Positions 8,692-54,139 of a stretch of 64,000 nt of DNA are shown piece by piece. The stretch is from Devosia sp. A16 (lineage in GTDB: Bacteria > Pseudomonadota > Alphaproteobacteria > Rhizobiales > Devosiaceae). Under the pieces are notes generated by a model. It searched no databases, was not told where the DNA came from, and saw only the letters and a program-made list of their open reading frames with translations. The stretch is from the NCBI RefSeq assembly GCF_001402915.1, contig NZ_CP012945.1:2953501-3017500 (forward strand), written 5' to 3'. Both the position numbers and the translations under genes were made by a program. Numbering within the stretch: position 1 is the stretch's first letter; the number at the start of each line of letters is the position of its first letter.

Positions 8692-9815
8692 TGCCGCTGT
8701 TCGATCGCTACATCGCGGTGGACTGGTCGGCGGCCAATAGCCCGAAACGCGGCAAGGATTCGATCTGGATCGGCGAGTTCGGACCCGAGGGCCGGGTGCC
8801 GAGCGTGAATCCGCCGACCCGCCAGGCCGCGATGGAGGCGATCACCGCGCGACTGCTCGGCGCCCGCCGACGCGGCGAGCGCCTCATGCTCGGCTTCGAC
8901 TTCGTCTTCGGCTACCCGCGTGGCGCGGCTGCTGCCATTGCGGCCACCGGCTTATCCCTCCCGCTCGCGGGGGAGCGGGATCATCCGGATAGCTCAGTGC
9001 GAGAAGAGTACCCCCCACCCTGTCCCTCCCCCGCAAGGGGGACGACAAGAGGTCGCCCCGAGGGGGAGGAGATCAAAACACCGGCGCCGGAGTGGGCGTC
9101 TCCCTCCCCCATGCGGGGAGGGGACAGGGGTGGGGGTACGTTTCCCGCACCGGCCCCTCAGCCAGGTGATCAGCCACCCTGGCTGCAGCTTTGGTCTACG
9201 CTGGCGCGCCTCGTCGCTGACGCCCCCGACAACCGCTCCAACCGTTTCCAGCTCGCCGAAGCGATCAATCAGCGGCTCGCCGACGGCCCGCATTTCTGGG
9301 GCCATCCGCATCAGCACAGCTACGCGGCGTTGCAGCCGAAACGCCCGACCGAGGCCTACGCCAAGATCCCCGAGCGCCGCGTGGCCGAACGCTACGTCCG
9401 CGGCGCCCAGCCGGTATGGAAGCTCACCGGCGTCGGCTCGGTCGGCAGCCAGGCCATGCTCGGCATCGCCCGACTGGCGGCGTTGCGAAGCGACCCGCGC
9501 CTCGCCGCCGATATTGCCGTCTGGCCGTTCGAAACCGGCTTTGCCGACGACCTTGGCAAGCCGATCATCGTCACCGAGATCTATCCCTCGCTGTTTCCTG
9601 TCACTGCAGCCGATGGCCTGCCGCGCGACCGCGCCCAGGTCGAGGTGACCACCACCCGCTTCGCCGAACTCGACCGCACCGGCCTGCTCGCCACCTTCCT
9701 CAGTGCACCCGCCGGGCTCACTGCCGATGAGCGTGCGATCCTCATTGCCGAAGAGGGCTGGATCGCCGGCGCCGGCCACGATGCCCTGCTGGCCCAGCTG
9801 TCCGAGGCCGCATGA
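8691..9815 (+). CDS. Uncharacterised cob-cluster protein with repeat-encoded insert
   Basis: A 374-residue protein starting MPLFDRYIAVDWSAAN, which resembles DUF429-type proteins (predicted RNase H fold). The function is unknown, although its position fused by overlaps between cbiX and cobH points to a role linked to corrin synthesis. Residues about 89-152 (SLPLAGERDHPD to FPAP) are low-complexity, rich in Pro, Gly and Arg. They are encoded by REP-like palindromes at 8953-9140. Without them the protein would be about 310 residues. The frame is kept through the insert, and the sequence on both sides looks conserved, so the gene is probably still translated. Confidence 0.75.
   Translation: MPLFDRYIAVDWSAANSPKRGKDSIWIGEFGPEGRVPSVNPPTRQAAMEAITARLLGARRRGERLMLGFDFVFGYPRGAAAAIAATGLSLPLAGERDHPDSSVREEYPPPCPSPARGTTRGRPEGEEIKTPAPEWASPSPMRGGDRGGGTFPAPAPQPGDQPPWLQLWSTLARLVADAPDNRSNRFQLAEAINQRLADGPHFWGHPHQHSYAALQPKRPTEAYAKIPERRVAERYVRGAQPVWKLTGVGSVGSQAMLGIARLAALRSDPRLAADIAVWPFETGFADDLGKPIIVTEIYPSLFPVTAADGLPRDRAQVEVTTTRFAELDRTGLLATFLSAPAGLTADERAILIAEEGWIAGAGHDALLAQLSEAA
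8953..9140. repeat. Composite REP-like element inside the cob-cluster gene
   Basis: The element contains a hairpin at about 8953-8982 and two arms of the same family found between genes. The left arm, with CCCTCCCCCGCAAGGGGG, is at about 9011-9042. The right arm, with CCCTCCCCCATGCGGGGAGG, is at about 9097-9138 and ends GACAGGGGTGGGGGT. The arms are in the same relative orientation as the pairs at 15268 and 17610. It adds about 64 codons in frame to the host gene. Confidence 0.8.
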
Positions 9816-14306: not shown

Positions 14307-14444
14307 CTGCCCCTCACCCGTCTCGCTTCGCTCGCCACCCTCTCCCTCAAGGGGAGAGGGAACACAGCCGCCCGCTCTGGGCCCCTTCTTCCCTCTCCCC
14401 TTGAGGGAGAGGGTGCCCTGCGCAGCAGGGCGGGTGAGGGGCAG
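14307..14444. repeat. REP-like inverted element, family B
   Basis: The arms CTGCCCCTCACCC and GGGTGAGGGGCAG bound this 138-base element. Inside are two opposed hairpins, CTCTCCCTCAAGGGGAGAG and its counterpart. It fills nearly the whole gap between cobJ and cobM and probably separates two transcription units or is transcribed as a structured spacer. Confidence 0.75.
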
Positions 14445-15247: not shown

Positions 15248-15267
15248 TGGCTAGGCCGGTGCGTGCC

Positions 15268-15373
15268 GCCCCCCACCCCTGTCCCCTCCCCGCAGGGGGG
15301 AGGGGGACGCCAGGCACCGCCATCAGAGTGAGGGTCACCCTCCCCCTTGCGGGGAGGGGACAGGGGTGGAGGT
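15268..15373. repeat. REP-like inverted element, family A
   Basis: The left arm runs CCCCCACCCCTGTCCCC-TCCCCGCAGGGGGG. The right arm is its approximate reverse complement, CCCTCCCCCTTGCGGGGAGG then GACAGGGGTGG. They are separated by about 25 bases. It lies between the convergent cobM and cobK ends and could fold into a large terminator-like structure. Confidence 0.8.
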
Positions 15374-15399
15374 CCACAGCCACCGGCCTTTCGACAGGC

Positions 15400-17597: not shown

Positions 17598-17609
17598 CCG
17601 GCGCGGGCT

Positions 17610-17714
17610 GACCCCCACCCCCGTCCCCTCCCCGCAAGGGGGAGGGAGACCCCAACACGGCGATCTCAATCTGCGTCTCCCTCCCCCTTGCGGGGAGGGA
17701 TTAAGGGTGGGGGC
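17610..17714. repeat. REP-like inverted element, family A
   Basis: The left arm GACCCCCACCCCCGTCCCC with TCCCCGCAAGGGGGAGGG ends GAGAC. After a 24-base loop the right arm starts GTCTCCCTCCCCCTTGCGGG and ends in GGGTGGGGGCC. It sits between the convergent cobB and cobF and is one of the cleanest copies of this family in the window. Confidence 0.85.
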
Positions 17715-17740
17715 CACAGCCACCGGCAGCGCGACAGGAG

Positions 17741-20005: not shown

Positions 20006-20189
20006 GCAGTCGGGTTCCCTCTCCCGTTTACGGGGGAGGGGGGACCAGCCGACAGGCTGGTGGGAGGGGGGTGCCACAAGCACCGACCCAACCCCGTCCG
20101 CCCACCATTCGTGCGTGGGGCACCCCCCTCCCACCACGCTTTCGCGTGGTCCCCCCTCCCCCGCAAGCGGGAGAGGGATTCCCGACTGC
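20006..20189. repeat. Long REP-like inverted element, family C
   Basis: The ends GCAGTCGGG and CCCGACTGC frame this 184-base element. Next to them are GTTCCCTCTCCC with GTTTACGGGGGAGG, and the opposite CCGCAAGCGGGAGAGGGATT. Internal pieces GACCAGCCGACAGGCTGGTGG and CCACCACGCTTTCGCGTGGT form two smaller hairpins. It fills most of the cobQ-cobD gap. The cobD frame stays open through it, which could permit an extended product, though the downstream ATG fits the family. Confidence 0.8.
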
Positions 20190-41810: not shown

Positions 41811-41943
41811 AAAGGCCTCCTCACCCGGCCCGGCGGGCCGACCTCTGCCCCAAGGGAGAGGTGGTGATGGGGCGAGATCGTGCCGCAACCTCACCTCTCC
41901 CTTGGGGGAGAGGTCGCCGCAAAGCGGCGGGTGAGGGGGCCTT
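41811..41943. repeat. REP-like inverted element, family E/G
   Basis: The arms AAGGCCTCCTCACCC and GGGTGAGGGGGCCTT enclose ACCTCTGCCCCAAGGGAGAGGT and the counterpart ACCTCTCCCTTGGGGGAGAGGT. It separates the importer genes from cdd and may weaken but not stop transcription. Confidence 0.8.
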
Positions 41944-43522: not shown

Positions 43523-43537
43523 GGCCCCACCCCCGGT

Positions 43538-43632
43538 GTCATTCCCGCGAAAGCGGGAAACTCTGTTTGCGATCCATCCACTCGCGCAGGCGGAGCAAAG
43601 AAAACGGAGGTTCCCGCTTTCGCGGGAATGAC
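43538..43632. repeat. Inverted pair of GTCATTCCCGCGAAAGCGGGAA-type repeats
   Basis: Two 22-base copies, 43538-43559 and 43611-43632, are reverse complements of each other, and each contains its own hairpin CCCGC-GAAA-GCGGG. They lie between deoC and the aldehyde dehydrogenase gene, so the message would carry a large stem-loop before the dehydrogenase ribosome-binding site. Confidence 0.8.
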
Positions 43633-43661
43633 CCGGTGAGAGTGGAGAGGGAGTGTCTCGA

Positions 43662-46034
43662 ATGAACAAAATCGCCGAAATCTTCACCTCCCTCGACTAC
43701 GGCCCGGCGCCGGAATCGCCTGATCTGGCGCTCGCCTGGCTTGCCGCGCATGACAACAAGTTCGGCCACTTCATCAACGGCGCCTGGACCAGCCCCGGCA
43801 AGACCTTCGCTTCGGAGAACCCGGCCAACGGCAAGAAGCTTGCCGACGTCACCGACGGCACCGCCGCCGATGTCGACGCCGCTGTGAAGGCTGCCCGCGC
43901 AGCGTTCCCCAAGTGGTCGGCTCTGTCAGGCTATCAGCGCGGCAAGTACCTCTATGCGATCGCCCGGTTGGTCCAGAAGCATTCACGCCTCTTCGCGGTG
44001 CTCGAGACCATGGACAACGGCAAGCCGATCCGTGAGAGCCGCGATGTCGATATCCCGCTGGTGGCGCGCCACTTCTACCACCATGCCGGTTGGGCCCAGC
44101 ACCTCGAGCGCGAGTTCCCCGACCACGTGCCCTATGGCGTCTGCGGTCAGATCATCCCGTGGAATTTCCCGCTGCTGATGCTGGCCTGGAAGATCGCCCC
44201 GGCGCTCGCCGCTGGCAACACCGTGGTGCTGAAGCCGGCCGAGTTCACCTCGCTCACTGCACTGCTGTTCGCCGAGATCTGCGAGAAGGCCCACCTGCCC
44301 AAGGGCGTGGTCAACATCGTCACCGGCGAGGGCGACACCGGCGCCGCCATCACCAGCCATCCTGATATCGACAAGATCGCCTTCACCGGCTCGACCGAGG
44401 TGGGGAAGATCATCAGGAGGGCCACTGCCGGCACCGGCAAGGGTCTGTCGCTCGAGCTCGGCGGCAAGTCGCCCTACATCGTCTTCGACGATGCCGACAT
44501 CGACAGCGCCATCGAGGGTCTCGTCGATGCCATCTGGTTCAACCAGGGCCAGGTCTGCTGCGCCGGCTCGCGCCTCCTCGTCCAGGAATCGATCGAAGAG
44601 CGCTTCCTCGAAAAGCTGAAGAAGCGCATGGCGACGCTCCGCGTCGGCGATCCGCTCGACAAGGCCGTCGATATCGGCGCCCTGGTCGCCCCGGTGCAGG
44701 TCGAGCGCGTCCGCGACCTGGTGAAGAAAGGCGTCGCCGAAGGCGGCCAGCTCTATGAGCCCGACATCGATATGCCGGGCGGCGGCTGCTTCATCAAGCC
44801 GACGCTGATCACCCACGTGTCGACTGCCAACACCGTGGCCAACGAGGAGATCTTCGGGCCGGTGCTGGTCGAGATGAGCTTCCGCACCCCCGAGGAGGCG
44901 GCGGCGCTCGCCAACAACACCCGCTACGGCCTCGCCGCGACCATCTGGACCGAGAACGTCAACCTCGCCCTAGATATCGCCCCCAGGCTGAAGGCCGGCG
45001 TGGTGTGGATCAACTCCACCAACAATTTCGACGCCGCGGTCGGCTTCGGCGGCTACAAGGAAAGCGGCTTTGGTCGCGAAGGCGGCCGTGAAGGCATGGT
45101 CTCCTACCTGAAGCCGAAGTGGGAGAAGGAGCTGAAGCCCTTCGTCGCCGCGACGCCCAAGGCAGCCAAATCCGCCAATCCGCTCGACGATGCCGGCGGC
45201 ATCGACCAGACCGCCAAGATGTACATCGCCGGCAGGCAGGCTCGTCCGGATTCCGGCTATTCCCGGCCGGTCTACGGCCCCTCTGGCGCGCTCGTCGGCG
45301 AAGTCGGCGACGGCAACCGCAAGGACATCCGCAACGCCGTGGAGGCCGCCCGCGCCGCGCTCGGCTGGGCCACCACCTCGGCCCATAACCGCGCCCAGAT
45401 CCTCTATTTCCTCGCCGAGAACCTCGAGTACCGGGCCGACGAGTTCGCCGCCCGCATCAAGGCGCAGACCGGTGAGGACGGCGCCGCTGAAGTCGCAGCC
45501 AGCGTCGAGCGCCTGTTCGCCTTCGCCGGCTGGGCCGACAAGTATGACGGCGCCGTGCACAACCCGCCGCAGCGCATGGTGGCGACCGCCATGGTCGAAG
45601 CGCTCGGCGCCATGGCCATCCTGGCGCCGCCGTCGCGCCCGCTGCTCGGCTCGATCGCGCTCGTCGCCCCGGCGCTCGCCATGGGCAACGCGGTGGTGCT
45701 GGTGCCCAGTGAGAAATCGCCGCTGTCGATGACCGACTTCTACCAGGTGCTGGAAACCTCGGACGTGCCCCCCGGCGTCCTCAACATCGTCACCGGGGAG
45801 AGCAAGGTGCTGGCCAGGACGCTCGCCGAGCATGACGGCATCGACGCCATCTGGTTCGCCGGCGATGCCGAGACCTCGGCCATGGTCGAGAAAGCCTCGG
45901 CCGGCAACGTCAAGCAGACCTGGACCAGCCGCGGGCTCTTCTATGACCTGAGCGATAAGGCGAAGTTCGAGGGCGACTATTTCCTGAGGCGCGCGACCCA
46001 GGTGAAGAACGTCTGGGTGCCTTACGGGGCTTAA
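43662..46034 (+). CDS. Tandem aldehyde dehydrogenase
   Basis: A 790-residue protein with two aldehyde-dehydrogenase-like halves. The first (about 20-490) is complete: IIPWNFPLLM, the catalytic Glu in LELGGKSP near residue 262 and the catalytic Cys in GQVCCAGSR near residue 295. The second (about 515-790) begins MYIAGRQARPDSGYSRPVYG and covers only the coenzyme-binding part; it has no catalytic Cys. Such tandem proteins occur beside deoC and probably oxidise the acetaldehyde released by it. The ATG at 43662 follows GAGGGAG; a GTG three codons earlier is possible. Confidence 0.9.
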   Translation: MNKIAEIFTSLDYGPAPESPDLALAWLAAHDNKFGHFINGAWTSPGKTFASENPANGKKLADVTDGTAADVDAAVKAARAAFPKWSALSGYQRGKYLYAIARLVQKHSRLFAVLETMDNGKPIRESRDVDIPLVARHFYHHAGWAQHLEREFPDHVPYGVCGQIIPWNFPLLMLAWKIAPALAAGNTVVLKPAEFTSLTALLFAEICEKAHLPKGVVNIVTGEGDTGAAITSHPDIDKIAFTGSTEVGKIIRRATAGTGKGLSLELGGKSPYIVFDDADIDSAIEGLVDAIWFNQGQVCCAGSRLLVQESIEERFLEKLKKRMATLRVGDPLDKAVDIGALVAPVQVERVRDLVKKGVAEGGQLYEPDIDMPGGGCFIKPTLITHVSTANTVANEEIFGPVLVEMSFRTPEEAAALANNTRYGLAATIWTENVNLALDIAPRLKAGVVWINSTNNFDAAVGFGGYKESGFGREGGREGMVSYLKPKWEKELKPFVAATPKAAKSANPLDDAGGIDQTAKMYIAGRQARPDSGYSRPVYGPSGALVGEVGDGNRKDIRNAVEAARAALGWATTSAHNRAQILYFLAENLEYRADEFAARIKAQTGEDGAAEVAASVERLFAFAGWADKYDGAVHNPPQRMVATAMVEALGAMAILAPPSRPLLGSIALVAPALAMGNAVVLVPSEKSPLSMTDFYQVLETSDVPPGVLNIVTGESKVLARTLAEHDGIDAIWFAGDAETSAMVEKASAGNVKQTWTSRGLFYDLSDKAKFEGDYFLRRATQVKNVWVPYGA

Positions 46035-46059: not shown

Positions 46060-46100
46060 GTCTCCCTCCCCCTTGCGGGGAGGGGACAGGGGTGGGGGTC
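46060..46100. repeat. Family A arm, left flank of the DUF559 gene
   Basis: A 41-base copy reading GTCTCCCTCCCCCTTGCGGG then GAGGGGACAGGGGTGGGGGTC. It matches the reverse complement of the copy at 46466-46506 at 38 of 41 positions and the right arm of the element at 17610. The DUF559 gene begins 21 bases after it. Confidence 0.85.
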
Positions 46101-46121
46101 CGCGAGCACCGGAGTTTCGGC

Positions 46122-46718
46122 TTGAGCATCGAGCGCGCCAGGCAGCTACGGCACAACGCCACCGGCCCAGAACGAAAGCTCTGGGCCATCCTTCGCGTCT
46201 TCAGCGAGCGTGGCTATCACTTCCGCCGTCAGCAACAGATCGGTCCGTACTACGCCGACTTCGCGTGCATGCATGCCCAGCTGATCATCGAAGCTGATGG
46301 CGAAACGCATACCTCCGCGGCCGAGCGTGACTACGATAGCGCCCGTGACGACTACCTGCGCGCTCGCGGCTTTCGTGTCCTGCGTGTCTGGAACAACGAA
46401 ATCACCGAGAACGCCGAGGGTGTCTTCACCATCATTGAGCAAGCCTTGAGCAATGTGCCCGCACTGACCCCCACCCTTGATCCCTCCCCGCAAGGGGGAG
46501 GGAGACGCAAGAGTCGCAAGGCTCTGCACGCACCCGACGCACCCACCATCCCCTTCCTTGGAATGAACACCGCCTCCAGCAGCGACAGCAGCGCTATCGC
46601 TCCAACCATCGCTCCTGATGTCAGCACCACGCGCTGCACCACCACTTCGAAGGCGTCGCGGGCGCCGAAGGTGGACGACAGCAGCATCACCAGCGCCACC
46701 GAGCAGATATACTGGTAG
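46122..46718 (+). CDS. DUF559 (Vsr-like) endonuclease-domain protein with repeat-derived tail
   Basis: The first 115 residues form a DUF559 domain with the PD-(D/E)xK nuclease fold: RARQLRHNATGPERKLW, then FRRQQQIGPYYADFACM with the Asp, LIIEADGETH with the Glu, and FRVLRVWNNEITENAEG. The natural end should be near EQALSN. Instead the frame runs through a family A repeat (LTPTLDPSPQGGGRR) and continues about 75 residues antisense to the FUSC gene. The start is taken as TTG 46122; a GTG in the left repeat (46092) is possible. DUF559 proteins are presumed nucleases; a DNA target is not known. Confidence 0.7.
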   Translation: MSIERARQLRHNATGPERKLWAILRVFSERGYHFRRQQQIGPYYADFACMHAQLIIEADGETHTSAAERDYDSARDDYLRARGFRVLRVWNNEITENAEGVFTIIEQALSNVPALTPTLDPSPQGGGRRKSRKALHAPDAPTIPFLGMNTASSSDSSAIAPTIAPDVSTTRCTTTSKASRAPKVDDSSITSATEQIYW

Positions 46719-47557
46719 TAGAGCGGCCGGCTCGCCCCGGTGGTCATCTTGTCGATCAGCACGAAAGTGATCAGCGCGATCAGGGCCACCAGCACCGGGA
46801 ACTGCGGCACCACGTAGTAGATCGCCATGGCGCCGACGGCGACCACCGCGCCGACGATGGTGCCGCCGCCGCGGTCGATCAGCTGCTGCAGCCGCCCGCC
46901 GCGATCCGGCTCGGCGCAGATGAAAGCCAGCATGATCGGCACGATGAGCAGGTTCATATCGCCCGTCGCGTAGGTCAGCAGCATGATCGGCACATAGACC
47001 GCCATGCGGATCAGCAGTTCCGCCGCGGGATTCTCGGTTTCGAACGGTTTTGGTTGCTCGACATGCACCAGGGCCGTCTGCGGCGGGAACAGGATGTTGA
47101 GTACCACCGCGGTGGTGCCGACGATCACGCCGCCGGTCGCCATCGAGTCGCGGATCGCCACCAGCGCCTGATCGCTGTAGAGCACCGACATCGACATCAT
47201 CGCGGGAAACACCGTCAGCATCACGCCGAGGCGCGAGCCCTTGAACAGCATCAGCGCGATGCCGGCGCCGGCCAGCACGACGTTGACCAGGACGAACAGC
47301 ATCGGCTCGCTCACCGTCGCCGCCGCGAGCCAGCTGAACACGAACGCCATCACCGGCAGCATCACCGGCCCCATGAACGAGCGCACGTTCAGGGCGCCGC
47401 GCTGGTTCGACATCAGGCTCATGCCCAGCACCACCGGCATCATCGGCTGCGTGACGCCGAGCGGATCGGCGAGGATCACGCAGATGGCGACACTGAGCGC
47501 GGTGCGGAGCGCCAGATAGGGATCCTCATTGGGATCGACGCGGGTCAGCTCTTCCAT
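46352..47557 (-). CDS. FUSC/DUF2955-like membrane efflux protein with repeat-derived tail
   Basis: A 401-residue inner-membrane protein related to fusaric-acid-resistance/AaeB-type exporters (DUF2955-like). It has two blocks of hydrophobic helices (about 15-160 and 180-330) around a short cytoplasmic segment (EQPKPFETENPAA). The natural end is probably LLEAVFIPRKG. After it the frame passes through a family A repeat (LRLPPPCGEGSRVGV) and runs antisense into the DUF559 gene. Its start follows GAGGAGG at good spacing and lies 26 bases after the HlyD-type gene, so the two form an efflux unit. Confidence 0.8.
   Translation of the reverse strand: MEELTRVDPNEDPYLALRTALSVAICVILADPLGVTQPMMPVVLGMSLMSNQRGALNVRSFMGPVMLPVMAFVFSWLAAATVSEPMLFVLVNVVLAGAGIALMLFKGSRLGVMLTVFPAMMSMSVLYSDQALVAIRDSMATGGVIVGTTAVVLNILFPPQTALVHVEQPKPFETENPAAELLIRMAVYVPIMLLTYATGDMNLLIVPIMLAFICAEPDRGGRLQQLIDRGGGTIVGAVVAVGAMAIYYVVPQFPVLVALIALITFVLIDKMTTGASRPLYYQYICSVALVMLLSSTFGARDAFEVVVQRVVLTSGAMVGAIALLSLLEAVFIPRKGMVGASGACRALRLLRLPPPCGEGSRVGVSAGTLLKACSMMVKTPSAFSVISLFQTRRTRKPRARR
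46466..46506. repeat. Family A arm, right flank of the DUF559 gene
   Basis: A 41-base copy reading GACCCCCACCCTTGATCCCT then CCCCGCAAGGGGGAGGGAGAC, inverted relative to 46060-46100. Both convergent genes, DUF559 on the plus strand and FUSC on the minus strand, read through it without a stop. Confidence 0.85.
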
Positions 47558-54011: not shown

Positions 54012-54139
54012 GCAGTCGGCAATCGGCAGTCGGCAGTAGAAAAAGCGCTCCGCCGCGGCCCGACTCACTTAGCAATTTCTGCCGACTGCCGACTGCCGAC
54101 TGCCGACTGCCGACTGCCGACTGCCGACTGCCGACTGCC
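54011..54139. repeat. Heptad tandem repeat with inverted copy
   Basis: At 54080-54139 the heptamer TGCCGAC is repeated about eight and a half times without change. At 54011-54037 a shorter stretch of the reverse complement, GGCAGTCGGCAATCGGCAGT, lies opposite, so the two can pair. It fills the gap between the convergent upp and HAD genes, where it may stop transcription in both directions. The copy number is likely to vary between strains. Confidence 0.85.

Follow-up and report, generated by a model that had tools for sequence, protein, structure and literature searches.

The DUF559 gene and its surroundings

The window, by which we mean the whole 64,000-nt stretch of DNA that was analysed, contains a DUF559 gene (about 46122-46466) in the gap that separates an aldehyde dehydrogenase gene from a convergent FUSC-like gene. 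The gene lies between two inverted copies of a repeat arm, and arms of the same or a related type are dispersed elsewhere in the window:

46060..46100, + strand: left arm, with an outer hairpin CCCTCCCC/GGGGAGGG at 46064-46084 and then a G-rich tail toward the gene
46122..46718, + strand: DUF559 gene, with the domain at 46131-46448; the frame continues across the right arm up to 46718
46466..46506, - strand: right arm, the inverted copy of the left arm, tail toward the gene
43653..46034, + strand: aldehyde dehydrogenase gene, the left neighbour, which served to locate orthologous sites
46352..47557, - strand: FUSC-like gene, the convergent right neighbour, whose frame crosses the right arm into DUF559
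15253..15389, no strand: dispersed dimer of the same arm family as the DUF559 unit, tails outward (inverted pair 15253-15308/15334-15389)
17609..17716, no strand: dispersed dimer of the same arm family as the DUF559 unit, tails outward (inverted pair 17609-17650/17675-17716)
9010..9137, no strand: dispersed pair of related arms (9010-9042 with 9095-9136)

The initial annotation of this DNA had described inverted 41-base arms around DUF559, alike at 38 of 41 bases, and we recovered the same arms at 46060-46100 and 46466-46506 (38/41 complementary, or 93% over 41 nt, and 365 nt apart). The closely spaced, tail-out pairs that it had placed at 15268, 17610 and within 8953-9140 are present too, at 15253-15389, 17609-17716 and 9010-9137. 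A by-eye alignment with the ATG of the gene in G004 and the GTG of that in G014 points to a likely TTG start for the window gene. As the DUF559 frame and the convergent FUSC frame overlap through the right arm (46352-46718), the unit seems to have lengthened the C-terminus of its neighbour; in G015, which is without the unit, the FUSC-like frame stops ten codons past a shared FIPRKG.

Other repeats were also seen in the window. An inverted pair of ATTCCCGCGAAAGCGGGAA-type repeats at 43525-43645 is CGTC REP-like, with no DUF559 inside, and long inverted dimers lie at 14307-14444, 20016-20178 and 41812-41943, those at 14307 and 41812 being arm-like. At 54079-54134 the 7-mer CTGCCGA forms a tandem array.

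The encoded protein matched PF04480 (DUF559) with an E-value of 5.9e-32 and 110 bits, against a cut-off of 20.6. Among 46 sequences from across phyla, the core residues E17, W21, E57, D59, D72 and R88 were invariant, and D46 and H63 occurred in at least 90%. The NCBIfam vsr model gave a weak match (E 3.5e-4, below its cut-off). A profile search of the PDB returned 3hrl, annotated 'Endonuclease-Like Protein', as the nearest solved relative (4.9e-38), and 3r3p, annotated 'Mobile intron protein' (1.4e-4), which we take to be I-Bth0305I; weaker matches (E 0.07 and above) were put down to chance. With the Pfam cut-off exceeded and the core residues conserved, the earlier assignment to a Vsr/PD-(D/E)xK-type nuclease family stands, and nuclease activity is predicted from the sequence. 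A defence-system reading was considered and rejected: beyond the ycjD family and the weak vsr match, the PADLOC and NCBIfam matches were weak (best E 3.5e-6 and 6.4e-6) and to long multi-domain proteins.

The DUF559 gene is under purifying selection. For eight orthologue pairs, taken from five sets that share synteny on one side or both, dN/dS was 0.050-0.099, and it was 0.061 for the window gene and its orthologue in G004. Two pairs from a clade linked to VOC-like genes (described below) gave 0.19-0.21, and three other pairs 0.044-0.121; 14 pairs were run in all, one of which gave no value. The window genome (5.03 Mb, one contig) had no match to the Y1 transposase family (PF01797), so there is no RAYT at hand to move the repeats.

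Enclosure of DUF559 genes and arm number across genomes

To score enclosure, we compared the 300 nt to the left of the DUF559 domain with the 300 nt to its right and took the highest-scoring inverted match, with a threshold of at least 20. In the window genome 10 of the 11 DUF559 genes were enclosed. As controls we used a 400-kb random sample of the same genome, where 2/168 called genes of 240-900 nt and 15/7457 sliding positions clear of DUF559 reached the threshold. Across 19 Devosia genomes, the window genome included, there were 76 DUF559 matches, of which five lay at contig edges and 71 were testable. Fifty-three of these 71 were enclosed, 41 of them with both arms no more than 60 nt from the domain, and the 18 below threshold included four genes of the VOC-linked clade with arms upstream only.

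Enclosure extended beyond the genus. In the class sample, 11/20 strong DUF559 matches were enclosed and 0/4 weak ones, with four further weak loci left unscored, and in the phylum sample 16 of the 27 fetched loci were enclosed. A GTDB scan (its query was a single DUF559 protein; the wide alignment A1 had no conserved stretch) yielded 63 loci from named bacteria of several phyla, 59 of them testable and 38 enclosed. Leaving out a duplicate of a Devosia locus, this is 37/58, against 0/60 for other short ORFs at the same loci. Nine loci from plasmid-collection records, scored singly and outside all other counts, reached 20 in five cases; both Azospirillum loci and those of Neisseria and Synechocystis were below. 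Several loci under the threshold in the class, named and phylum samples still carry short arms, as judged by eye. Thus, DUF559 genes of the window genome, of the genus and of the named bacteria were flanked by arms on both sides more often than control genes, as the initial annotation had anticipated, and the lack of any enrichment beyond background, which it had named as the outcome that would count against it, was not observed.

The arms are built of a hairpin, whose 5' stem contains only C and T, and a G-rich tail, which around DUF559 mostly points inward. For each side of the domain we considered the closest arm. Of these, 82 were tail-in and 13 tail-out in the genus (71 loci, 16 without a called arm), and 72 were tail-in and 10 tail-out in the named loci (58 loci, six without a called arm), so that outward tails occur on 13/95 and 10/82 arm-bearing sides, respectively. 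A 464-kb sample of the window genome, which counts 20 kb twice as L055 overlaps the window, held six consecutive tail-in arm pairs spaced 200-1500 bp apart. The three at 396-410 bp all enclosed DUF559, and the remaining three (660, 1139 and 1238 bp) did not; the strict arm caller overlooked one further DUF559 gene of this sample (in L043). Dispersed dimers in the same sample often have hairpins inward and tails outward, about 50 nt apart (12 such). A further 13 were called tandem and nine tails-in, some of the 'tandem' dimers being mis-oriented because the tail of a neighbour can satisfy the tail rule.

By a strict pattern the window genome has 420 hairpins; a looser count gave 99 tailed hairpins in 464 kb, which extrapolates to about 1000. 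GTAG was absent from the 15 6-mers that occur most often in the 30 nt preceding the hairpin (99 arms), and the 70 arms that were read by eye showed no GTAG foot. A CGTC-like foot precedes some hairpins of the arms of protein cluster 4, but the other features of CGTC REPs are absent. As folded DNA, single arms have modest stability (z -1.0 to -2.3).

Arm number depends on the presence of the gene. Hairpins were counted with the pattern CCYTCYCCN{2,9}GGRGARGG, fixed after inspection of arms from Devosia and other alphaproteobacteria, and the reversed pattern served as a control (0-3 in Devosia). The 17 Devosia genomes with DUF559 had 32-480 hairpins, and the two without, which are 98-99% complete, had 5 and 1; if the two were placed at random among the 19, the chance that they hold both of the lowest counts would be 1/171. 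In the class sample, the 12 genomes with DUF559 had a median of 28.5 hairpins and 7/12 had at least 10, compared to a median of 0 and 0/23 in genomes without it (p 2e-6, kinship ignored). The corresponding values in the phylum sample were a median of 40 and 24/31 with the gene, and a median of 0 and 3/47 without it (p 2e-10, kinship again ignored).

The class sample comprised 35 of 57 other genomes of the class. They were picked by hand, mostly by dropping genomes that were small or incomplete, and every one of the 12 strong carriers was retained. The phylum sample of 80 genomes consisted of 31 carriers (E under 1e-20), the 47 lowest-numbered others and two unclear genomes that were set aside (G160 with 25 hairpins and G194 with 0). 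A genome with a weak DUF559 match was treated as lacking the gene (G019 in the class; G081, G096, G098, G110 and G129 in the phylum). Two of the three genomes with at least 10 hairpins and no DUF559, G119 and G091, had high reversed-control counts too. The third, G124, is a true exception, with 75 hairpins against 0 in the control and no DUF559 match; it may have lost the gene, its gene may have been missed, or its hairpins may have another partner. Conversely, G156 and G204 have DUF559 and no hairpins of the searched pattern, and six further carriers have 2-4 (G022, G047, G164, G203, G085 and G101). Absence of the repeats from genomes with many DUF559 genes, the other outcome that the initial annotation had held to speak against it, is likewise not the rule, G156 and G204 being exceptions and G124 the reverse case. 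The gene recurs between inverted arms in many bacteria, and repeats are usually many where it is present and few where it is not; DUF559 is thus probably the hitherto missing partner through which repeats of this class spread.

Some DUF559 genes stand apart. At L003, L012, L020, L022, L254, L256, L263 and L264 the gene is followed by one that we take, from the start of its sequence, to encode a VOC/glyoxalase-like product, with arms seen only upstream or not at all; these genes are perhaps a domesticated, host-serving branch. At G032:C1:1222093-1222408 a DUF559 fragment (profile positions 56-108) lies between two hairpins, an apparent internal-deletion derivative of a DUF559 unit. Three phage records carry a relative.

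Arm types and insertion sites

Arms differ in type, and their type matches the clade of the protein that they enclose. In Devosia, proteins of cluster 1 have arms with two hairpins and the tail GGTGGAGGGGG, often with an outer CAGTCGG; those of cluster 2 have mostly CCTCTCCC-type arms with GGTGAGGGG; and in cluster 4, to which the window gene belongs, an arm mostly consists of a single hairpin with a GGGGTGGGGG-like tail. The more alike two proteins were, the more alike were their arms: for 57 units, compared in 1539 pairs that lack orthologous flanks, rho was 0.344, a value reached in 0/2000 permutations, the best of which gave 0.137. Within the window genome rho was 0.53 over 45 pairs. By eye, a cluster-1-like protein from Sphingomonas is likewise paired with a cluster-1-like arm. 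This matching lends support to the analogy with RAYTs and REPs that had been drawn from the window locus.

Dispersed arms also resemble the units of their own genome. Outside the units, 53/86 dispersed arms reach 0.6 or more of the full score against a unit of their own genome. When sets of 11 units were drawn at random from other Devosia genomes, 3/500 fitted the dispersed arms of the window genome as well as its own units do. When the comparison was made genome by genome at equal unit number, the units of eleven other genomes fitted these dispersed arms worse than subsamples of the window genome's own units did, and those of G002, G006, G007, G010 and, by a hair, G016 fitted at least equally well.

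Units are present in some relatives and absent from others at the same gene junction, as the initial annotation had expected. The window unit is found in G000, G004 and G014 (in the last on a contig without the right neighbour). In G015 both neighbours are the same, with no DUF559 and one solo arm between them; in G002 the sequence is cut off inside an arm, and in other genomes the left gene is otherwise neighboured. G006 has a different DUF559 unit between the aldehyde dehydrogenase gene and a putative deoA, an identity that we presume, and in G005, G011, G012 and G017 the putative deoA directly follows the aldehyde dehydrogenase gene. The L010 site holds a unit in G000, G002 and G004; G018 and G003 also have a DUF559 unit there, but not the same one. 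In G005 and G013 the neighbouring genes directly abut, in G017 they are close and armless, and in G011 there is a solo arm with another right neighbour. At the L009 site the unit occurs in G000, G007 and G004, the genes abut in G014, and G011 and G015 have solo hairpins. The remaining genomes have other genes at both sites. As these comparisons span species of one genus, they establish presence and absence rather than exact ends or direction, and as several units are common to species at one site, movement is not frequent.

Two units of Sphingomonas parapaucimobilis lie between sufB and sufC and between transhydrogenase genes, respectively. Among 30 sphingomonad sufB loci there were two arm-flanked units, one remnant, eight diverged DUF559-like genes (35-42% identity, and eight of the ten DUF559-related genes) and 19 with none. 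With a DUF559-related gene at 10/30 sufB-sufC loci, the site may be old or favoured rather than one of fresh insertion. The junction (L285-L314, L275 and L143) also carries variable small ORFs, and the last sufB codons come in differing synonymous versions.

We looked for traces of insertion at the outer edges of the units. In L292 a second, diverged sufB 3' end lies beyond the right arm (15 matching codons' worth), and L143 has a shorter copy beyond the unit, of six residues plus the stop. Among 91 units, far-side copies of the end of the upstream gene scored a mean of 36.0 at the protein level, compared to 34.9 in shuffled pairs, and none exceeded the shuffled 99% level. Nor was there a clear target-site duplication: direct matches between the outer flanks averaged 7.0, against 6.3 in shuffled pairs. 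Such matches reached 10 in 8/87 units and in 2% of shuffled pairs, a modest excess that on reading by eye consisted mostly of further arm sequence, plus the sufB case of L143.

A candidate partner for a family of REPs

The DUF559 unit is most like a REPtron, in which a RAYT (TnpA_REP) gene is associated with GTAG REPs, BIMEs and REPINs. In REPtrons, whose features are described in part in PMC8266576 and PMC3733652, the gene for a small nuclease lies next to inverted REPs, further REPs and inverted dimers are dispersed in large numbers, and gene and REP match. The DUF559 gene likewise lies between inverted REPs that have many dispersed copies, single and as inverted dimers, and its clade matches the REP type. 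Its product, however, is PD-(D/E)xK/Vsr-like rather than an HUH Y1 enzyme, in a genome without a Y1 gene, and its arms carry a G-rich tail and no GTAG foot. The unit therefore works like a REPtron yet is not one by definition, because the enzyme differs and the GTAG foot is missing.

Three other known systems bear comparison. The CGTC REPs (Di Nocera 2013), found mainly in alphaproteobacteria, are also abundant short palindromes that form inverted dimers, and according to PMC3733652 they are apparently without a dedicated transposase. They have a CGTC foot, an 8-9 bp stem starting with A-T pairs, a 4-5 nt loop and a CCA tail; the DUF559 arms differ in their C/T-only 5' stem and in their tail, which is G-rich. 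The EDxHD/Vsr-fold homing endonucleases (I-Bth0305I, PDB 3r3p) are related to DUF559 by sequence profile, but at the loci inspected there was no intron or intein, and the DUF559 gene is intergenic and enclosed by REP arms. Caulobacter VsrA (CCNA_02930) and E. coli YcjD are DUF559 proteins too. VsrA is tied to the damage that follows loss of a cytosine methylase (PMC12907096), a methylation-linked role that differs from that of a repeat partner; beside ycjD of E. coli K-12, by eye, there is a degraded arm at the end of the gene and a better-kept one about 170 bp further on. Our literature search found no published link between DUF559 and repeats in the papers within reach, and a report in a subscription journal is possible.

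We favour, with a probability of about 0.6, the reading that the unit at 46060-46506 is REPtron-like and represents the coding member of a REP family: a small nuclease of Vsr/EDxHD type (DUF559) sits within its own cognate arms and acts as their partner or mobiliser. The dispersed arms and dimers would be the non-coding members of this family. The nuclease would recognise its own arms by their hairpin and tail, probably in an extruded or single-stranded state, and nick or cut there; through repair or re-joining, copies of one arm, of a dimer or of the entire unit would then arrive at new intergenic positions, so that by cutting its arms the nuclease would multiply them. DUF559 would thus play for these repeats the part that is attributed to RAYT transposases in the case of GTAG REPs, although the two enzymes are unrelated. 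Slightly less firmly, we lean towards DUF559 as a second, RAYT-independent class of REP-mobilising nuclease in Proteobacteria, Chloroflexota, Verrucomicrobiota, Deinococcota and others, with hairpin-plus-G-tail REPs replicated by cognate enzymes, one repeat family per clade.

The chief rival, which may be part of the same story as the REPtron-like reading, is a selfish homing-type endonuclease. It would cut arm-like G-rich sites, and repair of the break from a unit-bearing donor would insert the unit, with the arms serving as target and homology and being multiplied as a by-product. The profile match to the mobile-intron protein 3r3p suggests such a route, as does the assignment of a DUF559 gene to the EDxHD homing family in PMC9403480. 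It is also consistent with the solo arms or hairpins that unit-free relatives can keep at the site (G015 at the window site, G011 at L010, and G011 and G015 at L009), and with the sufB 3'-end copies beyond the right arm in L292 and, in shorter form, in L143. However, far-side copies are not general among the 91 units, and that of L143 is short. Homing alone would moreover leave the hundreds of arms per genome and the clade-to-arm matching unexplained, and we consider it unlikely as the whole account.

We regard as improbable a host-serving repair or silencing nuclease that curbs a pre-existing load of palindromes, or repairs mismatches in them, and that lies near arms by selection rather than mobility. 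Strong purifying selection and the sites common to species would fit this, as would the link of VsrA to DNA damage in Caulobacter (PMC12907096). The correlation with arm number is on its own compatible with a suppressor, because genomes with a heavy load may be the ones that retain it. A host-serving nuclease predicts neither inverted enclosure in a fixed orientation nor one arm type per clade, though, and the two DUF559-free Devosia genomes (5 and 1 hairpins) should have kept their arms in the absence of a suppressor. Hitch-hiking would mean that short genes often end up in intergenic DNA rich in repeats, with arms that are terminators or old repeats unrelated to the gene. It gains some plausibility from the density of arms in the window genome (the 99 tailed hairpins of the 464-kb sample). 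This reading is nevertheless already contradicted by the control genes (2/168 and 0/60), by the clade-to-arm matching and by the dependence of arm number on the gene within the genus, and we give it hardly any weight.

REP-type palindromes are common in bacterial chromosomes, and there are sets of them, above all in alphaproteobacteria, without a known mobilising enzyme (for CGTC REPs, see PMC3733652). DUF559 is a candidate mobilising enzyme family for another very large set of REPs, which hints at what this domain of unknown function, present in E. coli (ycjD) and many other bacteria, may do. The question can be reduced to one small protein and one 41-nt DNA. If the REPtron-like reading is true, two unrelated types of nuclease would have converged on the same life style.
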